A stretch of 64,000 nt of DNA from contig NZ_JAMXFD010000001.1 of the NCBI RefSeq assembly GCF_025370875.1, positions 100,182 through 164,181 of the forward strand. The letters are read 5' to 3'. Under the pieces are notes generated by a model. The model searched no databases. It had not been told where the DNA came from and worked only from the letters and a program-made list of their open reading frames with translations. The stretch's first letter is position 1; every line of letters begins with the position of its first letter. Positions 29,203 through 34,121 of the stretch are shown here, one piece after another. Made by a program: the position numbers and the translations under genes. This DNA comes from Laspinema palackyanum D2c (GTDB lineage Bacteria > Cyanobacteriota > Cyanobacteriia > Cyanobacteriales > Laspinemataceae).

Positions 29203-30354
29203 CTAATCTCCGAAATTAAATTCCTGCAAGCGGGATAAGGTGCGCTGATTTTCCTCCGGGGTGCCGAGGGTAATTCTTAAACCGCCCCCGGTGTGACGAA
29301 TCAGAGTCCCTTGGGCCTTGAGTTCCTCAGTGATGCGAGTCAGGGTGGGACCGATCGCCCCTTGGTCCTGGAGATTCGGGCGCAGGTAGATAAAATTAGC
29401 TGCACTCGGCCACAGGAGAAATTTTTGCAGGGGTTGCAATCGTTCCCCGAAGCGATCGCGCTCGGTTAAAATTTCGGGAATGGTACTCAGGAGTTCCTGA
29501 CGATGGGCGATCGCCATCGATGCGGCAATCTGGGAGAATGCGGGGAGATTGTACGGCAGACGGACTTTTTCCAGGGTCGCCGTGAGTTCCGGATGGGCGA
29601 TCGCATAGCCCACCCGCAGGGCCGCCAAGCGAAAGGCTTTGGAAAAGGTCCGCATAATCACCCAATTTGGATGCTGGAGTAACTCACTCACCACACTGGT
29701 TTGACTAAATTCAAAATATGCCTCATCGATCGCCACCAAAATATGCGGTGGCAAACTACGGATCCAATCCAGTTCAGCCCGGGTTAAAGCATTGGCCGTG
29801 GGAGAGTTAGGATGGACCACGAACACCACCCGAACCGGGGGATTTTGGGTATTGGCAACCGCTGCCTGTGCTGCTGGGATGTCGATTTCAAAATTCGTCT
29901 CGTTGCGCCCGACTTCCACCACAGGAATGCCCAGGGTTTGGGCTAAAATCCCATACATGGAAAAAGTGGGATGGGCGACCAAAACCGACCCTTCACCCCC
30001 CAAACAGGTGGCAATCAGTAAAGAGCGAATTAGTTCGTCGGAACCATTGCCGAGGGAAATATGGGTGGCGGTGATGGGGGAATCAGGGAGTTGGGCTGAT
30101 TCGTTGACATATTCAGCGATCGCTTGCTTTAAGGAGGCATGACTCCCATCGGGATAGCGATTCGTTTCAATCTCCTGTTGATAGGTCCATGCCAGCTTTT
30201 CTTTGAGGGCCGCAGGCAAGTCGTAGGGACTTTCATTCGTATCCACCCGATCAATTTGGGCAGGTTTCTTCCCCCCAGGGGAATCGAGAGTACCACCCGG
30301 GTGGGGAGTATAGGCAATCAGTTGAGCTAGATCTGAGCGAAGAAAACTCAGCAT
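29203..30354 (-). CDS. hisC: Histidinol-phosphate aminotransferase
   Basis: This fold-type I PLP aminotransferase converts imidazole-acetol phosphate and glutamate to histidinol phosphate in histidine synthesis. I start it at 30354 ([11 protein letters not shown]), giving 383 residues as usual for HisC. The frame is open a further 78 codons upstream, but that stretch shows no family similarity. Motifs are the [10 protein letters not shown] substrate region, [12 protein letters not shown] for cofactor phosphate binding, [19 protein letters not shown] and the PLP lysine Lys239 in [17 protein letters not shown]. No other his genes are near, as is usual in cyanobacteria. The ribosome-binding site is weak for either start. 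Confidence 0.9.
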
Positions 30355-30826
30355 AGAATTGTAGAACCATGAAAAAGCCGCAATTGGGTGACAAGCACCG
30401 CTGTCTTTAGTATCGGTGTTTGGGTTAACTTCGGGCAATAGGCTTTTTTGCCTCTGGGGTATTTTGGGGTCAGGATGGGGCATTGGAGGCGATCGCCACT
30501 CCCGGGGACTCCCCTGGGGGTTGTTGTAATATTTCAGGGCATCAATCAGTTGGGGCAAAGGGTATGGAATCATTCTGTCGGAACTCACCCTTGCATAAAT
30601 ACTCTAAAATGTTCAGGGAATAGCAACAGGCTATTCTCTGATTACCGAGGGTTCTGGAGCCAGTTTACCCAACCGGGACTGCACTTACCCTCATAAAGAC
30701 AAAGCCGGTTGGAGGGGACAACTTCGGAGGCAGCCCGGTTAACCCCCTGATTTTCCCTCCGTTAGTTATGTTATTGTTAACGTTGACAATTTCGACAAAT
30801 GCAAGTACGCGAGACGGGGACTGATT

Positions 30827-31930
30827 GTGGAAAAAATTAAACTAGCGATCGTAGGTGTTGGTAACTGTGCTAGCTCCTTGGTGCAGGGAATTTACTTTTA
30901 TAAAGATAAGACTTCTGAAGAAGCGATCGGGTTAATGCACTGGGAGATTGGCGGGTATAAACCGAACGATATCGATGTAGTCGCGGCTTTTGATATCGAC
31001 CGCCGAAAAGTCGGCCAAGATGTCTCTAAAGCTATCTTTGCTGAACCGAATTGTACGACGGTTTTCTGCGAAGACATTCCCGAAATTGGCACGAAAGTCA
31101 GTATGGGAAGAATCTTAGATGGGGTCTCGGAACATTTGGTCAATTATGCAGATAAATATACCTTCATCCCCAGCGATACCCCAGAACCAACCCGAGATGA
31201 TGTCATTGCTATTTTAAAAGAATCCGGCGCTCAGGTCCTCGTGAATTATCTCCCGGTGGGGTCGGAAGAAGCGACGAGTTTTTATGCAGAATGCTGCTTA
31301 GAAGCGGGAGTTGCATTTGTCAATTGCATTCCGGTCTTTATTGCCAGCAATCAGTTATGGGCCGATAAATTTGAATCCCGCAATATTCCCATCGTCGGCG
31401 ATGACATTAAATCCCAGCTTGGGGCGACGATTGTTCACCGGATGATTACTGACCTGGCTAAAAAAAGAGGGGTCAAAATAGAACGGACTTATCAACTCAA
31501 TACCGCAGGAAATACGGATTTCTTGAATATGTTAAATCGCACCCGCTTAAAGTCTAAAAAAGAATCGAAGACGGAAGCGGTTCAGTCGGTCTGTGAAACT
31601 AGATTGGAGGATGAAAATATTCATGTGGGGCCGAGTGATTACGTCCCCTGGCAAAAAGATAATAAAGTCTGTTTTATTCGAGTGGAAGGCAAACTCTTTG
31701 GAGATGTGCCGATGAATATTGAAATGCGCCTGTCCGTGGAGGATTCGCCGAACTCCGCAGGGGTGGCGATCGATGCGATTCGTTGCTGCAAATTGGCCCT
31801 CGATCGCGGAAAAGGTGGCGTCCTCTTTTCTCCCTCTTCCTATTTCATGAAGCATCCGCCTAAGCAATATCCCGATGGTGATGCCTACCGGATGACCGAG
31901 GAATTTATCAACGGATTTAGAGAGTATTAA
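30827..31930 (+). CDS. Inositol-3-phosphate synthase (actinobacterial/archaeal type)
   Basis: The 367-residue protein is the same length as I recall for Mycobacterium tuberculosis Ino1. It begins KLAIVGVGNCASSLVQGI, the NAD-binding Rossmann motif of the prokaryotic inositol-1-phosphate synthases. Further hallmarks are NYLPVGSEEAT, NCIPVFIAS, VGDDIKSQLGATIVHR with the catalytic Lys, and LNTAGNTDFLNM. The enzyme makes myo-inositol-phosphate from glucose-6-phosphate with bound NAD. Start is a GTG preceded by GGGGA. An intrinsic terminator follows, so the downstream kinase is probably on a separate transcript. The next two genes (PfkB kinase, CDP-alcohol phosphatidyltransferase) suggest use of the product for lipid headgroups. 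Confidence 0.9.
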   Translation: MEKIKLAIVGVGNCASSLVQGIYFYKDKTSEEAIGLMHWEIGGYKPNDIDVVAAFDIDRRKVGQDVSKAIFAEPNCTTVFCEDIPEIGTKVSMGRILDGVSEHLVNYADKYTFIPSDTPEPTRDDVIAILKESGAQVLVNYLPVGSEEATSFYAECCLEAGVAFVNCIPVFIASNQLWADKFESRNIPIVGDDIKSQLGATIVHRMITDLAKKRGVKIERTYQLNTAGNTDFLNMLNRTRLKSKKESKTEAVQSVCETRLEDENIHVGPSDYVPWQKDNKVCFIRVEGKLFGDVPMNIEMRLSVEDSPNSAGVAIDAIRCCKLALDRGKGGVLFSPSSYFMKHPPKQYPDGDAYRMTEEFINGFREY

Positions 31931-31940
31931 TCAACTCCCC

Positions 31941-31977
31941 ATCGCCTCATTCTTGACGAGTGAGGCGATAATTTTTT
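31941..31977 (+). terminator. Intrinsic terminator after inositol-phosphate synthase
   Basis: ATCGCCTCA and TGAGGCGAT are perfect 9-bp arms, followed by AATTTTTTG. It lies 11 bp after the stop codon. Confidence 0.85.
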
Positions 31978-32046
31978 GAAAAACCAGCCAGTTTCAAGCT
32001 CAATTCTTGCCATCCCTGTCTCCCTAAATCTTGCCTAAATTGTCGA

Positions 32047-32919
32047 ATGTTTGATGTTTGTGTTATCGGCCATGTCACCCAGGACCGGATTAGAATTGAT
32101 GGGAAAGTTGTCCAAGAAATGGCTGGTGGGACGGCAATTTATACCGCCAGTGCCTTAAAAACTTTGGGGTTAAATGTGGCCGTATTAACCAAAACCTCTG
32201 GTGCAGACCGGATTTATCTGTTAGAAGAATTAAAAAATCGGGGCATTGCTGTTTTTTGGAGCGAAAGCCCCGAAACCACCCAGTTTGAAAATAGTTATCA
32301 GCGCGATCGCCTGGATAGTCGTCAACAAAAAGTCCAGGGGGTTGCTTCCCCCTTCACTCCCCCAGACTTAGGCCAAATTCAATCCCGGATCTTTCATCTA
32401 GGCGCACTCACCAATCAGGAGATGTCCCTGGAATTTCTGCAAGCGGTTTTCGCAACCAAAGCCTTAATTTCTTTAGATGGACAAGGATTTTTACGGCAAG
32501 TCATTCATCAAACAGTCCAGGCAAAAGATTGGGCGGAAAAACTACCTGGACTGGCTGGAGTAGATATTTTAAAAGTGGATATCCAAGAGGCACAACTGCT
32601 ATCGGGAAAAACCGCCATCGAACCGGCGGCGATCGCCCTGCATCAGTGGGGAGTTCGAGAAGTCTTAATCACCGCAGGAAGTCAAGGTTCTTGGGTTTAT
32701 CAATCCGGGACTCTGAAGCAAATTCCGGCCTTTCCACCTACTACCTCCGTCGATCCAACCGGCTGCGGAGATACCTACATCGCCGGTTATTTATATTCTC
32801 GATTAACCGGAGAACCCTGTCATCTTGCTGCCAGATTTGCCGCCCAAGTTGCCACCCGCAAACTCGAAAATTTCGGTCCCCTCCGGGAGTGGCAAACGGG
32901 CGAATCAATGCCGAGTTAA
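32047..32919 (+). CDS. PfkB family carbohydrate kinase
   Basis: This 290-residue ribokinase-fold protein has the early motif MAGGTAIYTASALKTLGL and the C-terminal PfkB signature DPTGCGDTYIAGYLYS. Asp242 is the predicted catalytic base in the GCGD anion hole. The substrate cannot be read from sequence. Lying between an inositol-phosphate synthase and a phosphatidylinositol-phosphate synthase-like gene, a myo-inositol kinase is an attractive idea, since archaeal PfkB-family inositol kinases exist. This is inference from context only; a cyanobacterial ribokinase or adenosine kinase-like enzyme remains possible. It converges on the transferase gene with 58 bp between stop codons. Confidence 0.85.
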   Translation: MFDVCVIGHVTQDRIRIDGKVVQEMAGGTAIYTASALKTLGLNVAVLTKTSGADRIYLLEELKNRGIAVFWSESPETTQFENSYQRDRLDSRQQKVQGVASPFTPPDLGQIQSRIFHLGALTNQEMSLEFLQAVFATKALISLDGQGFLRQVIHQTVQAKDWAEKLPGLAGVDILKVDIQEAQLLSGKTAIEPAAIALHQWGVREVLITAGSQGSWVYQSGTLKQIPAFPPTTSVDPTGCGDTYIAGYLYSRLTGEPCHLAARFAAQVATRKLENFGPLREWQTGESMPS

Positions 32920-32977
32920 AAATCGGGGGGGAATTAACAAACCGACAGATCCCCAGATCTATCGGTTGCGTCAAATC

Positions 32978-33586
32978 TTACGAAACCCCCATTTTCGATG
33001 AATCCTCCCCTGGATGGGTGACCCGATAAACATGAATAATCCGCTGTAAACTGGTCAATAAACTGGCGATCGCTAGGACCGACAACGCCACAGGCAACTG
33101 ATCCACAATTAACCCCACCGCCATCACAATCACCCGAGGCAGTCGGGGAAACCACCCCACCTTGCACTCAATCTTCAATCCTTCCGCCCTTGCACGGGTA
33201 TAACTAACCATCTGTGACCCCAGCAGGGCCAACAAACAAATCGGAATCGAGGGATATTCTTGACGGTGGATCAATAAAATTGTGATGCCAATCAAGATGG
33301 CCCCTTCGGAAAATCGGTCTAAGACCGAATCAAAAAACGCCCCAAACGCATTCTGTTGATTGAGTAACCGGGCCACGGCCCCATCGATCGCATCTAGGGG
33401 CATTGCGATCAATCCCATTAACAATCCCCCCCACAACGGTTGATCATTGGCAATCACCCCTGCCGCCAAAATATTCAACAACAAGCTCAATAATGTAATC
33501 GTATTGGCAGAAATGCCCAGTTTTGCCATCCCCTTGGCAATGGGTTCAACGATAAATTTAGTGCGATCGCGCGCCCAAGTCTCCAC
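32978..33586 (-). CDS. CDP-alcohol phosphatidyltransferase, phosphatidylinositol-phosphate synthase-like
   Basis: The 202-residue membrane protein has about six hydrophobic segments and the complete CDP-alcohol phosphotransferase motif D65-x2-DG-x2-AR-x8-G-x3-D-x3-D, ending at Asp90 (Asp65, Asp68, Asp86 and Asp90 bind metal). It catalyses transfer of an alcohol to a CDP-activated lipid. By remembered alignment it is closest to actinobacterial PIP synthase (PgsA1) and archaeal archaetidylinositol-phosphate synthase. Shared features are a basic N-terminal helix, DRFSEG after the motif, SQMVSYTRARAEG with Arg131/Arg133, PRLPR with Arg148/Arg151, and LQRIIHVYR with Arg182. In those enzymes basic residues in these places hold the inositol phosphate. 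The inositol-phosphate synthase 1 kb away supports that acceptor. A housekeeping phosphatidylglycerophosphate synthase is the main alternative. Confidence 0.8.
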   Translation of the reverse strand: METWARDRTKFIVEPIAKGMAKLGISANTITLLSLLLNILAAGVIANDQPLWGGLLMGLIAMPLDAIDGAVARLLNQQNAFGAFFDSVLDRFSEGAILIGITILLIHRQEYPSIPICLLALLGSQMVSYTRARAEGLKIECKVGWFPRLPRVIVMAVGLIVDQLPVALSVLAIASLLTSLQRIIHVYRVTHPGEDSSKMGVS

Positions 33587-33693
33587 AACTGCTAACCCTT
33601 TAGACTGAATTTTGATTTAGCTATGGTAACCTTCCCAACCAAATTCCGGCGAAAACGGGGACGGATAAAGCACACAGCATGAAATCCCCCCAG

Positions 33694-33830
33694 TTCGTAG
33701 TAACGCCTTCAGGCGTTCTCTTCGTTCGTAGTAACGACTTCAGTCGTTCTCCGGTGTTCGTAGTAACGCCTTCAGGCGTTCTCTTCGTTCGTAGTAACGA
33801 CTTCAGTCGTTCTCCGGTGTTCGTAGTAGC
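33694..33830. repeat. 63-bp tandem repeat, two full copies plus a partial
   Basis: The unit starting TTCGTAGTAACGCC at 33694 recurs at 33757 and partly at 33820, an exact 63-bp period. Each unit contains two hairpins, AACGCCTTCAGGCGTT and AACGACTTCAGTCGTT. Because 63 is divisible by three, artificial open frames arise on both strands. Confidence 0.9.
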
Positions 33831-33859
33831 AACAACTAACGGGGGTTTAAACCCTAACA

Positions 33860-34039
33860 GCAACAACCGGCGGGGGATAAATCCCCCGCCTAACAGCTAA
33901 AGTCGGTTAAAACCGACTGAAAGTCTTATGGGAGGGTGTTTTTAGAAACCGGCTGAAAGTCTTACGGGGTAGTGTTTTTAGTCGGTTTTAACCGACTTTA
34001 GCTGTTAGACGGGGGTTTAAACCCCCGTCGGTTGTTGCC
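33860..34039. repeat. 180-bp repeat element with terminal inverted repeats, copy B
   Basis: It starts GCAACAACCGGCGGGGG and ends GGGGGTTTAAACCCCCGTCGGTTGTTGC. It carries internal AGTCGGTTAAAACCGACT palindromes. It is the same family as 28867-29131. Confidence 0.8.
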
Positions 34040-34121
34040 TTCAGTCGTTATCCCCACCCCCCCTCCAATCAAAACCGATCGCGTTTACCCTAGATAGTTG
34101 ACTCAACCCTCAAACCGGATC

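Follow-up and report, generated by a model that had tools for sequence, protein, structure and literature searches.

We analysed a 64,000-nucleotide stretch of the filamentous cyanobacterium Laspinema palackyanum D2c (the window; contig NZ_JAMXFD010000001.1, positions 100,182 to 164,181), which belongs to a genome assembly of 7.03 Mb in 81 contigs, and focused on three neighbouring genes with a predicted role in inositol lipid synthesis. The open reading frames of all three, encoding an inositol-3-phosphate synthase (MIPS), a PfkB-family kinase and a CDP-alcohol phosphotransferase (hereafter the transferase), were found where an earlier reading of the same DNA, made without database searches (the sequence-only reading), had placed them. 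The features of the locus are as follows.

30827..31930, plus strand: ino1, encoding MIPS of the actinobacterial Ino1 class; 367 residues, GTG start.
31941..31977, plus strand: intrinsic terminator 3′ of the MIPS gene, with a 12-pair stem (31941-31969) and a T run.
32047..32919, plus strand: PfkB/ribokinase-family kinase, predicted ATP-dependent myo-inositol kinase; 290 residues.
32940..32967, minus strand: terminator-like hairpin after the transferase stop, from the consensus scan alone, with a weak T tail.
32978..33586, minus strand: CDP-alcohol phosphotransferase, predicted phosphatidylinositol phosphate (PIP) synthase (PIPS) of the lineage that we call type A; 202 residues, GTG start.

The terminator that the sequence-only reading had put between MIPS and the kinase folded at -20.9 kcal/mol (z = -6.7 against shuffled sequences), and the kinase and transferase genes are convergent, with 58 bp between their stops. 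A single operon of the three genes was ruled out by this terminator and by the opposite strand of the transferase, as had been anticipated when the link was called spatial. Six relatives of the transferase with 93-97% identity were present in the genome collection, in Laspinema sp. D2d, L. palackyanum, L. olomoucense, two Oscillatoria sp. and Phormidium pseudopriestleyi. We then calculated the ratio of non-synonymous to synonymous substitution rates (dN/dS) from seven comparisons per gene inside the Laspinema group, the transferase comparison with genome G393 giving no ratio since dS was undefined. The values were 0.00-0.04 for MIPS, 0.05-0.12 for the transferase and 0.18-0.32, the highest of the three, for the kinase. 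Such low ratios point to purifying selection on all three in the genus, as would be expected of genes that are being maintained.

The transferase belongs to the Pfam superfamily PF01066, and its best matches among known structures were RsPIPS (5d92) and MtPgsA1 (6h53). It scored 145 bits with the NCBIfam model of archaetidylinositol phosphate (AIP) synthase (archin_ph_syn, NF040950; cut-off 180), 132 bits with PIPSynth (NF045883; cut-off 170) and 127 bits with the Bacteroides PIP synthase model PIPSynBT1523 (NF052561; cut-off 350), the last of which was also missed by the two Bacteroidota relatives that we scanned (299 and 286 against 350). A DIPPS-type model gave 65.5 bits, the pgsA model TIGR00560 gave 27.8 bits and was missed (cut-off 109.1), and the ClsA model gave 19.5 bits. 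By these scores, the transferase is predicted to belong with the inositol-phosphate-using branch, short of any curated equivalog.

The CDP-alcohol phosphotransferase motif DxxDGxxAR(8)GxxxDxxxD is kept in the transferase (D65, D68, G69, A72, R73, G82, D86 and D90). Two structural papers locate the inositol-phosphate pocket of M. tuberculosis PgsA1 and describe a severe loss of activity when R155, R195 or R94 is changed (PMC4634129 and PMC6506517). When the window protein was aligned with MtPgsA1 (61 of 180 aligned positions identical), all seven pocket positions were kept: six were identical (R94 as R91, S132 as S128, R137 as R133, R152 as R148, R155 as R151 and R195 as R182), and K135 was replaced by R131. 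Arg131, Arg133, Arg148, Arg151 and Arg182 are the residues that the sequence-only reading had assigned to this site. The seven places are kept in 10/10 type-A proteins, whereas each of the nine aligned housekeeping PgsA proteins has Lys at the equivalent of position 91 and nothing basic at 131, 133, 148, 151 and 182.

A tree was built from 34 proteins, leaving out the weak CDP-alcohol rows L005, L007, L018 and L055 and cutting rows L131 and L134 to their transferase part; loci L013, L014, L017 and L021, which have no open reading frame bearing the motif, stand outside it. The PIPS side, with type A and five relatives from Actinobacteria and Bacteroidota, was split from PgsA with a support of 100/100; these five reference proteins were taken from databases as homologues, one carrying a PIP synthase annotation, and are not assayed enzymes. 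Type A formed a clade (96/98), its placement with two actinobacterial proteins was weaker (81/97), and the order among the PIPS groups was weak (81-83). The transferase did not group with housekeeping PgsA, and a genuine PgsA was identified on another contig of the same genome (G000:C2:301227-301709; TIGR00560 166.5 bits, above the cut-off). Taken together, these results uphold the earlier view that the transferase is nearer to PgsA1 and AIP synthase than to PgsA, for which a tree had been proposed and the lack of a second pgsA-type gene named as a refutation. No relatives of the transferase were found in a scan of viral contigs, and the structure models of the transferase and the kinase, for which the alignments comprised the window and the six Laspinema-group loci, had low mean pLDDT (predicted local distance difference test) values of 36.8 and 54.3.

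MIPS passed the gathering score of PF01658 (122 bits against 27) and missed that of the NAD-binding domain PF07994 (20.6 against 25). Its best structural match was Ino1 1gr0 (389 bits), of the same class, and the second was the five-membered-cyclitol synthase 6k96 (192 bits), at half that score. The equivalog cut-off of TIGR03450 mycothiol_INO1, a model of mycothiol makers judging by its name, was missed (438.7 bits against 638), and Bacteroides MIPS 7nwr, at 42 bits, is of another class. PF01658 matches were found in 4/386 genomes of a phylum-wide sample, in 43 of 388 genomes (17 of 149 genera) of the order, and in all 14 genomes of the family; MIPS is uncommon in cyanobacteria, yet it occurs beyond this family too. 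Titles cited in PMC7550737 also claim MIPS activity for two Synechocystis genes that belong to other families. Wild-type Synechocystis sp. PCC 6803 had no detectable myo-inositol (PMC7550737).

We further studied the co-occurrence of MIPS with a PIPS-like gene, defined as an NF045883 match at E ≤ 1e-12, in the 388 genomes of the order, both scans being on the same draw as far as the genome handles show. PIPS-like genes were found in 18/388 genomes, namely 18/43 with MIPS against 0/345 without it, so the ino1 association that the sequence-only reading had proposed to check is present in 18/18. Fisher's test gave 1.5e-19 by genome, a figure inflated by relatedness since the PIPS-like positives fall in three families; by genus, all seven PIPS genera lie inside the 17 MIPS genera of 149 (7e-8, likewise inflated). 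Type A scored 128-136 bits in 10 genomes from three genera of one family, and a second type, B, scored 65-82 bits in 10 genomes from three families, with G223 and G393 carrying both. Within the order, proteins with the full pocket are exclusive to MIPS-bearing genomes; across the phylum, some distant relatives are not.

For the kinase, the best structural match was TM0415, a pyrophosphate (PPi)-dependent myo-inositol 1-kinase (3.7e-28; 82 of 271 aligned positions identical). The TM0415 acceptor residues D11, N78, Q141 and R145 are all kept, as D13, N82, Q146 and R150, and the residues of TM0415 and MI3K, the ATP-dependent myo-inositol 3-kinase of Thermococcus, that contact inositol are kept as D13, G28, N82, Q146, R150 and D242. 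The donor site is different: the window kinase has PTGCGD where TM0415 has RTGRGD (RXGRGD), with R229 replaced by P237, R232 by C240 and M266 by L, and with K171 and F221 kept. TM0415 is described as phosphorylating myo-inositol with PPi, and enzymes with small residues at the RXGRGD place as ATP users (PMC5931981). A PPi-dependent kinase like TM0415 was ruled out on these donor-site residues, which are of the ATP type.

The kinase was then searched for (E ≤ 1e-15) in 80 genomes, comprising all 43 with MIPS and 37 hand-chosen ones without it. It was present in exactly the 10 type-A genomes (10/10 against 0/70 others), always tail to tail with the transferase, with MIPS alongside in 9/10 and with outer flanking genes that differ among the three type-A genera. 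In the tenth genome, G223, MIPS lies elsewhere and is of another class, with 292 bits to Bacteroides MIPS 7nwr and 21% identity to the window MIPS. Given that the pair is retained there and a different MIPS stands in, we argue that the transferase would need inositol phosphate and that the kinase would serve the transferase. That MIPS gene (L108:8478-9683; Bacteroides/archaeal class) is followed downstream by a Gfo/Idh/MocA oxidoreductase gene. Further, hisC and MIPS lie side by side in divergent orientation in three genera (g1, g141 and g142; window 29203-31930, L104, L110 and L116), including G395, which has neither the kinase nor a type-A transferase; this suggests that MIPS was resident and that the kinase-transferase pair was inserted next to it. 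The sequence-only reading had the kinase family right and called its substrate unknown; from its likeness to TM0415 and its pairing, the enzyme is probably an inositol kinase tied to the transferase.

Relatives of the kinase outside cyanobacteria were sought in a plasmid collection that includes some chromosome-sized records. There were matches in 19 records, and among the matches listed the best three came from Bacteroidota (38-41%), followed by Thermus sugar-acid kinases (about 29%). The kinase of Spirosoma oryzicola is the next annotated gene to a PgpA-GtrA-DUF5686-PIPS/DUF4833-PAP2 cluster, 0.8 kb away. That of Phocaeicola massiliensis adjoins MIPS, and no more than 6 kb away are HAD, CDP-alcohol transferase and NTP transferase genes, a gene set that corresponds to the alternate inositol lipid cluster described by Heaver et al. 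2022 (PMC9246714). Inositol-lipid genes thus stand beside the relative in two of the three Bacteroidota records, and the three cyanobacterial and three Bacteroidota kinases that we aligned have the acceptor residues and GCGD in common. In Heaver et al. 2022 (PMC9246714), the word 'kinase' occurs in the reference list only.

The kinase might instead act in the breakdown of inositol or sugar acids, as TM0415 may do, leaving the MIPS-PIPS pair alone as the lipid pathway. The TM0415 gene sits in an inositol catabolic operon and its product may prefer another acceptor (PMC5931981); the function of the window kinase is itself predicted, its gene is the fastest-evolving of the three, and the Prevotella relative lies away from MIPS and PIPS. 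We nevertheless regard this as unlikely, given the strict pairing with the type-A transferase, even where MIPS is elsewhere, and the company of the other two Bacteroidota relatives.

From the families, active-site residues, phylogenetic placement, co-occurrence and kinase-transferase pairing that we computed, we infer the substrate of each enzyme, a phosphatase and the final lipid of the following pathway. MIPS would convert glucose 6-phosphate to 1D-myo-inositol 3-phosphate, which the membrane-bound transferase would join with CDP-diacylglycerol to give PIP and CMP, and a phosphatase encoded elsewhere would convert PIP to phosphatidylinositol (PI). The kinase would phosphorylate free myo-inositol with ATP and return inositol phosphate to the transferase; the free myo-inositol might come from inositol monophosphatases, lipid turnover or uptake. 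We consider it likely that the locus encodes such inositol glycerophospholipid synthesis, with a de novo and a salvage route leading through PIP to PI. The observation behind the sequence-only reading is confirmed and its interpretation largely supported, none of the three results that it had named as refuting having been found; PIP and PI synthesis stands, and 'phosphoinositide' was too strong a term, as nothing here bears on phosphorylated-PI signalling.

DIPPS uses CDP-inositol. The 65.5-bit match to the DIPPS-type model, together with the 25 MIPS-bearing genomes that have no PIPS-like gene, would fit a cluster whose product is a soluble inositol compound, such as di-myo-inositol phosphate or a cyclitol, and no lipid. 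This is very improbable, for no cytidylyltransferase is fused to the transferase or present among the four scanned flanking proteins with a family, the lipid-type PIPS and AIP synthase models score double the DIPPS-type model, MIPS is closer to Ino1 than to the cyclitol synthase, and PI is reported in the genus (PMC12196109). Still less can be said for a second PGP (phosphatidylglycerophosphate) synthase or CDP-alcohol type cardiolipin synthase that lies next to MIPS by chance, to which the common superfamily and the weak pgsA and ClsA scores would point, in view of the 127-145 bits with the PIPS and AIP synthase models, the genuine PgsA elsewhere, the basic pocket and the tie to MIPS over three families.

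The predicted inositol lipid synthesis at this locus can be compared with a lipidome published in 2025 and obtained by liquid chromatography-tandem mass spectrometry, which lists nine PI species in Laspinema sp. LEGE 06078, the major one being PI 34:1 (PMC12196109 Table 2). The major phosphatidylglycerol (PG) of that strain is likewise 34:1, and PI species number zero in the Rivulariaceae strain and one in the Sphaerospermopsis strain (PMC12196109). Phosphatidylcholine (PC) species in the three strains, in the same order (Laspinema first), number 2, 2 and 16 against 9, 0 and 1 for PI (PMC12196109), so the PI counts do not follow PC, the lipid that a eukaryotic contaminant would be expected to bring. 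Bacteroides PI is given as 30:0 (PMC9246714), unlike the 34:1 of LEGE 06078. Possibly, the genes described here, which are known from strains other than LEGE 06078, explain the PI species listed for the genus.

Several points weigh against the lipid pathway as proposed. In the lipidome paper the LEGE 06078 culture is not called axenic, and the DNA protocol includes a wash meant to rid the cells of bacteria; one PI species is listed for a Nostocales strain too; and iso-15:0, a bacterial-type acid, makes up 1.6% in Laspinema and 3.6% in Sphaerospermopsis and is given as none in the PI-free strain (PMC12196109 Table 1). Since iso-15:0 is confined to the PI-bearing strains, a bacterial contaminant could carry the PI. 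The transferase reaches none of the curated equivalog cut-offs of NF045883, NF040950 and NF052561 and stands outside all three groups, and it differs from PgsA1 at two further positions (P153 to L149 and D31 to N28); AF2299 and the DIPPS enzyme likewise have Asn at the D31 place in the alignments. In the phylum sample, seven genomes of other lineages match NF045883 without MIPS (E ≤ 1e-12, 48-55 bits), the top-scoring model being AIP synthase, with weak scores, for six of the proteins and pgsA for one; when realigned, all seven have the Arg that follows the last catalytic Asp and lack Ser128 and most other basic places. Because 25/43 MIPS-bearing genomes of the order have no PIPS-like gene at E ≤ 1e-12 (for example G064, G207 and G417), MIPS would serve something else as well. 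The Km of TM0415 for myo-inositol is poor (12 mM), and its authors propose another genuine acceptor (PMC5931981), so that myo-inositol is only the probable acceptor of the window kinase. In Prevotella, the 14.8 kb surrounding the kinase (about 7 kb each way) showed neither a MIPS nor a PIPS relative. Finally, none of the 80 genomes gave a match to the PgpA type of phosphatase (PF04608), to which the PIP phosphatase of Bacteroidetes belongs.

PgpA was accordingly ruled out as the PIP phosphatase, and MIPS alone was ruled out as a lipid marker by the 25/43 count. Five proteins of the inositol-monophosphatase family (PF00459) were matched in the window genome, on contigs C32, C6, C35, C21 and C4; one of them could be a candidate PIP phosphatase or a source of free inositol for the kinase.

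We compared the locus with known systems. The actinobacterial MIPS and PgsA1 pathway has the same two predicted activities, an Ino1-class MIPS and the seven pocket positions, with K135 as R131 here, whereas the locus here has an additional kinase and a cyanobacterial host, its transferase is identical to MtPgsA1 at 61 of 180 aligned positions, and it has no neighbouring PI-mannoside acyltransferase gene such as is seen in Tsukamurella. The Bacteroidetes cluster BT_1522-1526 (Heaver et al. 2022, PMC9246714) has a related PIPS, the window transferase being 41-43% identical to proteins of Prevotella, Spirosoma and Hymenobacter, and Spirosoma and Phocaeicola also have a related PfkB kinase (38-40%); in contrast, the window has a MIPS of another class, no PgpA-type phosphatase and no PAP2 gene beside the transferase. 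The kinase resembles TM0415 in its acceptor residues and not in its donor site, and has N82 where MI3K has Leu. The housekeeping PgsA of the same genome has the phosphotransferase motif as well, but lies in a clade apart and does not have the inositol-phosphate arginines.

In our searches of the open-access literature, no paper describing a cyanobacterial PIP synthase gene came up. Morii et al. 2014 is said, going by its title, to be a survey of PIPS and AIP synthase distribution. As far as the sequences allow, the finding is firmer than the sequence-only reading had put it: a single cyanobacterial family has a rare, coherent set of predicted inositol lipid genes that includes a predicted salvage kinase. 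Four lipids are named in the description of cyanobacterial membranes, monogalactosyldiacylglycerol (MGDG), digalactosyldiacylglycerol (DGDG), sulfoquinovosyldiacylglycerol (SQDG) and PG (PMC5897459), and inositol lipids are called relatively rare among bacteria (PMC9246714). Dedicated inositol lipid genes in a cyanobacterium would strain both descriptions and make available a simple phototroph for studying the role of PI in a cell with thylakoids, and they give a testable function to a PfkB protein whose gene also neighbours inositol-lipid genes in some Bacteroidota. A wider reading is put forward tentatively, and may well fail in one part or another: PI would be a genuine native membrane lipid of this cyanobacterial lineage, and an ATP-dependent inositol kinase would join MIPS and PIPS as the third standard component of the cassette, so that inositol phosphate reaches one transferase both de novo and by salvage. 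A Bacteroidota-like donor would have supplied the pair of kinase and transferase, which came to lie next to a resident MIPS, the kinase would be an unrecognised part of Bacteroidota inositol-lipid clusters too, and type B, beside a YegS-like lipid kinase in some genomes, may be the source of a further inositol lipid in related cyanobacteria.

Some minor observations were also made. Between the transferase and a rhodanese gene, 33693-34055 holds a direct-repeat block (a 63-nt unit twice, and 15-nt units) together with an inverted repeat of 80 nt that is 83% complementary. Genus g18 supplies 12 of the 25 MIPS-bearing genomes that have no PIPS-like gene. A Sphingomonas parapaucimobilis plasmid (L141:4150-6817) carries a MIPS gene, its product 65% identical to that of the window, between CDP-alcohol transferase and NTP transferase genes, an arrangement that resembles the alternate CDP-inositol type cluster. 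CDP-alcohol transferases with an inserted loop occur in genomes outside the order that have no MIPS (L005 and L007-L011; G090, G319, G234, G347, G230 and G071); they give weak scores with the AIP synthase model and lack most of the inositol-phosphate pocket. Type B, which in the order sample occurs solely in MIPS-bearing genomes, has an N-terminal extension and keeps the basic pocket except for Ser to Pro. Among seven type B loci (L105, L107, L109, L111, L112, L114 and L119, in G393, G223, G395, G397, G519, G623 and G634), a DAGK_cat/YegS lipid kinase gene adjoins the transferase in three (L105, L107 and L112) and lies about 2.5 kb away in L111.

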